From: a virus
Reading direction: 5' to 3' (one strand)
Length of the DNA stretch: 25,210 bases
IMG/VR virus record: IMGVR_UViG_3300027733_000191
Coordinates: 1 to 25,210 of that record
Shown here: positions 8,555 to 14,425 of the stretch, in pieces
How positions within the stretch are numbered: the stretch's first letter is position 1
How the letters are laid out: each line of letters starts with the position of its first letter
The notes under the pieces: generated by a model
What the model saw: the letters and a program-made list of their open reading frames with translations, nothing else
Told to the model about the DNA's origin: nothing
The model's database searches: none
Position numbers and translations under genes: made by a program

Positions 8555-9247
8555 CTAATTTTCATCATAAATCATATTAAGTGCCTCTTTTGCTGAATTA
8601 ACCATTGATTCCATTTTGCTAGGTTGACCATTGGACAAATTTTGTCCTTTGTTAATTGGTTTCATATATTGGATTACATTGGCTAATTTAGTCTTCCAAT
8701 TCTTTATTGGAGTATCATGTCCATCGTGCCAATTATTCGTGTTATAATCAAAGTATTTAGCCTTTAAAGCATATTCATAGTTACCTATCATTTCTGCTTT
8801 TTCAATACAAGCTAATCCGTATACTACAAATTCATGTTCAGTTGGTGGTGAAAATATTTTTTTATTTTTACTTATACCTTTTAATATTATACTATTATTA
8901 TTTATATTATTATCATTTATTATATTTGCTTCAAGGGACTCTTCAAGGGGTGTTTGAGGGATGTCTAAGACCCCTTCAAGGGTATCTTCTGTATCTTCTT
9001 GATTATTAGATTTTACCTCATAACCTTTTAAGCCAAATTCTTTTGCTTCTAATACATAGTCCATAGTCTTCTTATAAGTCTCGAAATACTTTTTTACAAT
9101 TTTTGTTTTGATTGTTAAATCTTTTTTCAAATAATATCTAAAAACATTAGAAATAAATTCATCTAAGTGCTTATCATTTTCAAAAAATACTTCTGCAATC
9201 TCAATATCTTGTTTTGTGATTTTACAGTATTCCTTTTTAATCTTCAT
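8555..9247 (-). CDS. Replication-module protein (DnaD/O-like position), about 230 aa
   Basis: I place the start at the ATG at 9247 ([13 protein letters not shown]). A longer version from a TTG at 9292 would run through the leader's terminator hairpin. The N-terminal part is helical and basic; a low-complexity linker with NDNNINNN follows. The C-terminal segment ..[16 protein letters not shown].. to ..[19 protein letters not shown] is like the end of phage replication proteins in this host group (F-D-Y/S-x-x-W .. xKNWKxxxxxW/I). The last 12 residues [13 protein letters not shown] repeat the tail of the 63-aa protein. It is adjacent to NinG and recombination genes. The family call is tentative. 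Confidence 0.5.
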
Positions 9248-9257
9248 TTTTCTGCAT

Positions 9258-9374
9258 AAAAAAAGCATCGCTACTTTCTCTGTTTGACACAATCCCCAGT
9301 AAAGGATTACAGATACTTATAACGATGCTTAATTTAAATTTCTTCATACTGATAATTTTGGCAAGGTGTCAAAC
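9258..9374 (-). promoter_or_regulatory. Structured leader with interleaved inverted repeats and terminator-like U-tract
   Basis: In RNA order: GTTTGACAC (9374-9366), AAGCATCG (9330-9323), a small hairpin AATCC/GGATT (9308-9304 with 9295-9291), GTGTCAAAC (9290-9282), then CGATGCTT running into seven U (9270-9258). The first and fourth parts pair perfectly over 9 bp; the second and last over 8 bp. The two helices interleave, so they form a pseudoknot or compete. The U-tract ends 11 nt before the ATG at 9247. This looks like an attenuator or a riboswitch-like control of the replication gene. It is not a class I recognise. Confidence 0.55.
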
Positions 9375-9405
9375 TTGTTACTCCAATTTTCTTTTACAAA
9401 TATAA

Positions 9406-9773: not shown

Positions 9774-10421
9774 TTAATCGTTTGTAATTCTTCTATAATA
9801 GTTCCCAATTTTTATTGGGGTATCAAATGCTTTTTGGGCATCCCAACCTCTAACTATTCTTGCCCTTATACTTACATAATCCGCTCTTCTATTTAATTTT
9901 TCTACTAATAACATAAATGCATATTTCTCTCCATTGTATGTAACCATTAAAGTATTATCTCTATTATTGTTATTTATTTTACTTGTAACCCACCTGCAGT
10001 TATTTGGTTCATATCCTTTTGAATTATCTTGCCTATCAATTTGCAAACCTTTCTCATACCCATTTTTTAAAGCCCAGTCTTTAAAGTCAAAATAATCATT
10101 AAGCCACTGATCACATACTTTTATACCTTTTCTAAAATACAAATGGTTTTCAAAATAATTTTCAGCACATCTTCTGATCATTGCTTTCCAAACCTTACAT
10201 AAATAAGTACCACTTTCCCCTTTTAATACATGAGAACAACCGCATGAAGTAATTCTTAACCTAATCAAATGAATTAATCGTATTGATTTTATATTACCAC
10301 AATCACATTTACATACAATCGTTCTGTTTTTCTGCCCACTTGGTAGTATTAACTTTTCTCCTTCTTTTACTACTAAAAATTTACCAAATCTCTGACCTTC
10401 TTTTAATTCAATTCTTTTCAT
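9774..10421 (-). CDS. Homing-endonuclease-like protein (AP2/HNH type), 215 aa
   Basis: It has an N-terminal zinc-ribbon-like part (KCDCGN .. SCGC, residues about 37-63). A central segment GIKVCDQWLNDYFDFKDWALKNG is followed by LQIDRQDNSKGYEPNNCRWVT (by position about 128-148), the signature of free-standing phage endonucleases related to HNH/AP2 homing enzymes. The C-terminal helix-loop region probably contacts DNA. Such genes are selfish invaders of phage genomes. Here it stands alone between NinG and the HTH gene, with no obvious intron beside it. Confidence 0.65.
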   Translation of the reverse strand: MKRIELKEGQRFGKFLVVKEGEKLILPSGQKNRTIVCKCDCGNIKSIRLIHLIRLRITSCGCSHVLKGESGTYLCKVWKAMIRRCAENYFENHLYFRKGIKVCDQWLNDYFDFKDWALKNGYEKGLQIDRQDNSKGYEPNNCRWVTSKINNNNRDNTLMVTYNGEKYAFMLLVEKLNRRADYVSIRARIVRGWDAQKAFDTPIKIGNYYRRITND

Positions 10422-13820: not shown

Positions 13821-14425
13821 TATGGTTCTATAATTATTGGTTGCCCACCGATGTTTAAATATGCTTGACAAATTTCTTCAAGGCTCATATCATTCAAATC
13901 GTACATTACTGGAATCTCTTTATGTTCCGGTATTCCAAAATCGCAAGTGTCAATTAATGCGGTGTCTTTGTATTCGCTAACCATTGTTAAAACTTGGTCG
14001 TAGTTCAATATTGAATTGAATACAAAATTAGATTGCTTAGGTGTGTATTGTACCTCAATGATATGTCCTAATGTATCGTGAATGGTGCTTACTGCATAAT
14101 CAACTGAATGTCCTAATCTGTTACAATAATAAATTGCTTCTATTAGTTTATCAAATTCGCTATTATTATTAGGAGTTGAAGGATGAAAAGTTTTTTTCAT
14201 GTATTGGATAAACCAATCCAAGTGATTAGGTCTTTTCATTAACATACTTTCGTAGATGTCGCTGAACATCTTTTGTGCTGTTTCAACTTCATTAAGGGTA
14301 TTAAGCATCACTAATGCTATTCCTAATTGCGCTTGATAGTTTGGAGTTGTAAAGACTTCATCATCTTCATTTAATTCTTGAAAGTTGCGTATTAGGCATT
14401 CCTTAGTAGTTTGGCGTGTGTTCAT
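13820..14425 (-). CDS. Unknown phage protein, 201 aa
   Basis: It encodes 201 aa. It is acidic (..LNEDDEVFTTPNYQAQLGIALVMLNTLNE..), mostly helical in the first 130 residues and strand-rich afterwards, and ends ..SLEEICQAYLNIGGQPIIIEP. It has no signal, membrane segment or zinc motif. I recognise no family. Its stop is coupled to the 87-aa gene. It is the largest unknown in the early operon, so a metabolic or host-takeover role is possible, but the sequence gives no clue to chemistry. Confidence 0.55.
   Translation of the reverse strand: MNTRQTTKECLIRNFQELNEDDEVFTTPNYQAQLGIALVMLNTLNEVETAQKMFSDIYESMLMKRPNHLDWFIQYMKKTFHPSTPNNNSEFDKLIEAIYYCNRLGHSVDYAVSTIHDTLGHIIEVQYTPKQSNFVFNSILNYDQVLTMVSEYKDTALIDTCDFGIPEHKEIPVMYDLNDMSLEEICQAYLNIGGQPIIIEP

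Follow-up and report, generated by a model that had tools for sequence, protein, structure and literature searches.

A kissing-hairpin leader, apparently an undescribed RNA switch, precedes replication and other genes in many phages of Bacteroidetes

Comparison of a viral contig with its relatives points to what looks like an undescribed RNA switch at the start of gene blocks, including those for replication, in a large number of Bacteroidetes phages. The window, i.e., the whole stretch of 25,210 nucleotides analyzed here, is IMG/VR virus record IMGVR_UViG_3300027733_000191, positions 1-25,210, and it carries the element on its minus strand. We define the class by a TAnnTTTG box and a 5′ hairpin whose loop has its complement in a loop or bulge of the next hairpin, which ends in a U tail, and the window element has each of these parts. 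The element is most likely a cis-acting transcription attenuator or antitermination leader, and we estimate a probability of about 0.5 that it is a cis-acting, promoter-proximal leader RNA of conserved kissing-hairpin architecture which acts as a transcription attenuator.

On the minus strand, the two interleaved inverted repeats of the original prediction are present as GTTTGACAC (9374-9366) with GTGTCAAAC (9290-9282) and AAGCATCG (9330-9323) with CGATGCTT (9270-9263), and the inner AATCC/GGATT hairpin (AATCC 9308-9304, GGATT 9295-9291) lies within them. Two helices had been overlooked. One is the 4-bp stem CAAG/CTTG (9377-9374 with 9365-9362) of a 5′ hairpin, P0 (CAAG [UUUGACAC] CUUG, 9362-9377), which appears in the minimum-energy fold, holds strand A in its loop and recurs in relatives as the same hairpin with other letters; the other is UCUGU/ACAGA (9313-9309 with 9283-9279), or C-outer. 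The 5′ arms of C-outer and C-inner (AAUCC) together occupy 9304-9313, and their 3′ arms lie at 9279-9283 (ACAGA) and 9291-9295 (GGAUU). The 8-bp repeat grows to a terminator-like stem of 12 bp, stem B, with its 5′ arm at 9319-9330 and its 3′ arm at 9263-9274. The kissing core that can form alongside every other helix has 7 bp (TTGACAC/GTGTCAA) and not 9 because the outer two pairs of the 9-bp repeat overlap neighbouring stems; strand A is UUGACAC at 9366-9372, and strand A′ is GUGUCAA at 9284-9290, a 7-nt bulge within the terminator-like hairpin. With this core all helices are mutually compatible and are conserved together, which argues against the two competing folds that had been proposed as one option; the other option, a pseudoknot plus terminator, agrees with what was found, a leader RNA of kissing topology with a terminator-like hairpin at its end. 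The seven U are there, as the tract 9258-9264 that ends the terminator-like signal, at a distance of 10 nt from the ATG (9247) and not the 11 nt first given. An interleaved-helix scan returned 1 element in the window and 0 in 20 shuffles, and in a stricter scan that included the 5′ hairpin none of 300 dinucleotide shuffles reached the score of the window element. The folding energy of 9248-9380 was -32.9 kcal/mol (z -3.5 versus shuffled sequence), the predicted leader (9258-9392) had a folding z of -2.7, and in minimum-energy folds computed without constraints most of the 8 leaders folded had each of the two strands in a loop or a bulge.

The element begins immediately after a Bacteroidetes -7 box, TATATTTG (9404-9397; consensus TAHHTTTG), that is kept in relatives. 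In this box the G is at -5 relative to the start (PMC6847099), and the box-to-start distance from the same study predicts +1 at about 9392 and a leader of about 135 nt from the start to the end of the U tract; the mean leader in F. johnsoniae is 33 nt. Between promoter and first gene the window has a terminator-like hairpin with a U tract, the arrangement of an attenuator. The gene behind the leader (8555-9247, minus strand; phrog_15768, unknown function) had been called a replication gene, and a putative replication-initiation protein is plausible by position, where relatives have Lin1244/DUF1376/DUF6291-type proteins, but the gene itself has no Pfam match. Elsewhere in the window, at 9774-10421 (minus strand), an HNH endonuclease gene lies between a NinG gene and an HTH_39 gene; the genes around HTH_39 may differ in relatives (methyltransferase and others). 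A tblastn search with the HTH_39 gene against phage records returned nothing.

Using the downstream protein as query, two viral contigs bearing the leader were recovered, and further relatives, one of which (L163) belongs to a Bacteroidetes MAG, had the same leader ahead of different genes. One near relative has GTTTGACCA/TGGTCAAAC in place of GTTTGACAC/GTGTCAAAC, a double compensatory change, and in a more distant group (L108 and others) all helices are kept with letters that differ everywhere except in the P0 stem, C-outer and C-inner covarying to UUUGG/CCAAA and AAGCC/GGCUU. The covariation analysis proposed along with the original prediction was run and revealed compensatory changes in the homologous leaders, in all helices but the P0 stem, which is invariant in the window group. 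In an alignment of 10 sequences (A4) tested for P0, kissing A/A′, B and C, the 33 pairs had 98.8% paired cells, 10 pairs were changed on both sides, and double-change cells numbered 36 as against 13.6 in shuffles, while slid control structures were 33-46% paired; the 7 pairs of A with A′ were 100% paired (n = 10 sequences), 4 of them changed on both sides. This alignment does not test P0, because its four pairs never vary in that group. In a second alignment (A7) of 23 sequences, the rows of which were picked by a scan that requires the A/A′ match, 29 pairs were 97.6% paired, with 21 pairs changed on both sides, 105 double-change cells versus 24.6 in shuffles, and slid controls at 38-42%; here P0 was changed on both sides in two pairs.

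The leader had further been called riboswitch-like. Ligand-binding aptamers usually have a large invariant region. Here the shared sequence comes down to short motifs (GAA, AAAnAUUAUA), with wide variation in loops and stems, no large invariant region and no conserved ligand-binding aptamer across distant members; unrelated genes follow, and a riboswitch is therefore not supported. That no known riboswitch class is matched was borne out by a covariance-model search against Rfam (riboswitches, C4 antisense RNA, ToxI and others), in which no family reached its gathering score on the elements and permissive searches gave none at E up to 1, the best weak matches having E values of 8-9. A search of published titles and abstracts, with most subscription papers and preprints lying outside it, returned no description of this leader. 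A leader with a terminator and long-range pairing is a known working kind; the architecture and the family appear to be new.

Several elements are followed by a small gene for a protein of about 65-80 aa, one member of which matches phrog_33177. With this small protein alone as bait, 80 viral loci were collected, giving 57 non-redundant upstream regions, and the architecture was present in 43 of them (shuffles of the same regions: mean 0.2, maximum 2), the remaining 14 not being called by the scan. The bait set held 28 different A sequences, each with a perfect complement. Whole-locus scans gave 47 matches in 957 kb versus 4 in shuffles, and 86 unrelated viral contigs (768 kb) gave 3 matches versus 3 in two shuffle rounds, i.e., shuffle level; a gapped pattern scan of viral contigs yielded mostly chance matches and was reused as a negative control. 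A structure-only search in the leader-bearing phages uncovered new elements; one phage can hold as many as three, and no two of them have the same loop pair. The 65-80 aa protein, of unknown function (LDKSTAIKFAKTLRTEINK; phrog_33177), is widespread between the leader and replication-type genes, e.g., at L204:8001-8225. About 5-40 nt before the small gene, L205-L283 have a second small hairpin with a covarying stem directly before the start codon, AGTTTAT-CGGT-ATCTTAAA-ACCG-TTATTATT, with the stem variants CCGT/ACGG and AGGT/ACCT.

Across the class the TAnnTTTG box is followed, in order, by an RNA start a few nucleotides on, the 5′ hairpin, a longer hairpin, a U-rich stretch and the start codon, and a linker AAAnAUUAUA is common ahead of the second hairpin. 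The kissing pairing is 7-10 bp, between the loop of the 5′ hairpin and its exact complement in the second hairpin, where other families have the partner strand in the apical loop and the window has it in the bulge. At least 6 T in 8 nt follow the hairpin in 44% of elements versus 11% of background, and some half of the relatives have a weak U tract (UUUUAC, UUUUCA). Most elements are found 4-50 nt upstream of a start codon, where a gene block begins, and the genes behind them are of replication type or encode YopX, an HNH endonuclease or a portal protein. The 5′ hairpin holds the GU strand GUNNNNNN in 26 elements, the terminator loop then holding its partner NNNNNNAC; 19 elements have the reverse arrangement, with the GU strand in the terminator loop, and a GAA flank travels with the GU strand in 14 of the 26 and 8 of the 19. 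The loop-loop module has thus been swapped between the hairpins, which is hard to explain except by loop-loop contact, and the swap, as an experiment of nature, speaks for the contact itself as the working part.

Cultured phages with the element comprise Lillamyvirus, Muminvirus, Olleya Harreka_1 (30085-30174), Tenacibaculum JQ (35963-36055), Cellulophaga phi10:1 and F. columnare V156, the last identified by eye (P0 GTAATGAAGTAGAGAGCATTAC, A′ CTCTCTAC), as well as Flavobacterium morran9-1 (14191-14289), and in most cases the element adjoins replication genes. No element above shuffle level was found in the cultured phages P12024S, Fpv5, BK687P6 and BC669P1; in Fpv5 and BC669P1 the loosest scan gave a few isolated matches, which had no proper promoter box or U tract of five and were not counted. 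In blastn searches of phage records the window leader matched nothing, and the morran leader matched 126 records, mostly Flavobacterium phages, many of the matches covering part of the query. A model (R2) weak on distant members found no match in 247 Bacteroidota genomes, a set with no positive genome as control, and a pattern scan of 395 Bacteroidota genomes matched 9 with 0 elements there, a reversed control pattern being about equally frequent. Similar leaders with a differing loop pair occur in lillamy (L290), mumin (L289) and morran (L284), phages of Flavobacterium LMO6/LMO9; the loop is GTGAGACG in lillamy, GTGGAACG in mumin and GTGAGAAG in morran, each with its complement.

In the mechanism that we favor, the nascent RNA would act as a transcription attenuator, with the second hairpin as a putative intrinsic terminator. 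Kissing with the already folded 5′ hairpin would set how fast and how stably this terminator forms and thereby what share of polymerases goes on into the replication (or other) gene block; freeing of either loop, by a phage or host protein, by translation or by the state of the polymerase, would be expected to change read-through. Each element holds both halves of its pairing, and control is therefore most likely in cis. No second copy of the full pairing strands was found in the window, morran9-1 or JQ (a single stray 7-mer occurred in Harreka_1), and therefore no separate partner RNA is seen. Taken together, a place between promoter and gene, a U-rich end and the lack of a second strand copy in the window suggest a leader that acts in cis and sets the level of read-through. 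What is conserved may not be strict termination, given the weak U tracts of roughly half the relatives; loop-loop pairing can be useful without termination, and a hairpin that stops 4-20 nt short of the AUG could instead work on translation.

The weak U tracts leave room for two other readings, both of which we consider unlikely. One is control of translation, in which a hairpin before the start codon would limit ribosome access and kissing would lock or unlock it. It draws on the start codon being often 4-20 nt away, on the small frame of the window group ending at the next start codon, and on the Bacteroidetes working without Shine-Dalgarno sequences, with initiation that depends on local structure (PMC6847099); it leaves the U-rich end unexplained, and the bait-set elements end 39-53 nt before the AUG with a separate small hairpin between. 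The other is a polymerase-modifying antitermination RNA, in which the folded kissing RNA would stay on the host polymerase and later terminators would be resisted, like put of phage HK022, of which putL is a sequence of about 70 nt with two stem-loops immediately downstream of PL (PMC9378689). Both are phage leader RNAs right after an early promoter, with two hairpins, that act on gene blocks (PMC9378689), and elements just downstream of promoters heading phage gene blocks, as compact two-hairpin RNAs, would suit such a role. The likeness is one of architecture, and the present leaders differ in having 7-10 bp of loop-loop pairing, a terminator-like second hairpin and a host of another phylum. 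What speaks against this reading is that the second hairpin itself resembles a terminator and that the members have just the short motifs GAA and AAAnAUUAUA in common, which leaves a shared protein surface little to recognize.

We see still less reason to favor a terminated leader RNA that would also act in trans on its own copies, for incompatibility or superinfection control with the loop as specificity, for which phage P4 CI RNA and plasmid antisense RNAs are precedents. The similar leaders of the LMO6/LMO9 Flavobacterium phages that differ at the loop pair, and the elements of one phage, up to three, which never share one, would agree with this, but drift plus compensation gives the same pattern, intramolecular pairing would compete, and no trans RNA or antisense promoter was seen. 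P4 immunity by leader termination likewise has short complementary leader segments and termination before replication genes; a processed RNA, an immunity function and a trans partner are P4 features, whereas the present element is described here from its sequence. Ribosome-mediated attenuation, confined to the window group, is improbable: a ribosome on a 36-codon open frame (9237-9347, minus strand) would cross stem B and prevent termination, the stop being coupled to the next start. This frame, the stop of which overlaps the ATG of the next gene, is open in 7 of 7 close relatives and stops just before or across the next start in all seven although the following genes differ, but its variable sites are spread over codon positions 1, 2 and 3 as 4, 3 and 5, with no third-position bias, and it is missing from the L108 group and other families with the same RNA fold; a coding role was dropped on these grounds, and the frame is probably incidental. 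In the repY-repZ pseudoknot of IncI/IncB plasmids, a leader frame and long-range loop pairing also precede a replication initiator; there the pairing switches on translation next to the start of the initiator, and an antisense RNA competes. Here, by contrast, a U tract ends the second hairpin, and no antisense RNA is known. The pT181 and pIP501 attenuators share a nascent leader with a terminator ahead of a replication gene and depend on antisense RNA and competing folds, while here all helices are compatible. Very improbable, finally, is a DNA-level feature, with the inverted repeats as an operator or replication origin; they do adjoin a promoter near replication genes, with a winged-helix gene just upstream, but they diverge freely yet stay complementary, both arms sit in loops of conserved hairpins, the arms are swapped between families, and the window has no other copies.

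Beyond the attenuator reading, we put forward tentatively, at less than even odds, that these elements form an undescribed phage-specific class of regulatory leaders, with a swappable kissing module (GAA-GUNNNNNN with NNNNNNAC) controlling polymerase entry into replication and other blocks of Bacteroidetes phages, and with loops that diversify between host-sharing phages and may define compatibility groups. To our knowledge, gene regulation in Bacteroidetes phages has been little studied. The leader is recognizable by structure alone in cultured Flavobacterium, Olleya, Tenacibaculum and Cellulophaga phages, and its position, often before replication genes, offers a direct handle on how these phages time replication.

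Two further elements were noted among the contigs. At L260:61-117 (plus strand), on a phage contig of the same group, a hammerhead type III ribozyme scores slightly over the Rfam gathering threshold, and in L152 and L161 inverted repeats of the type GGTTCACTA / TAGTGAACC form arrays that seem to be a repeat element of their own.
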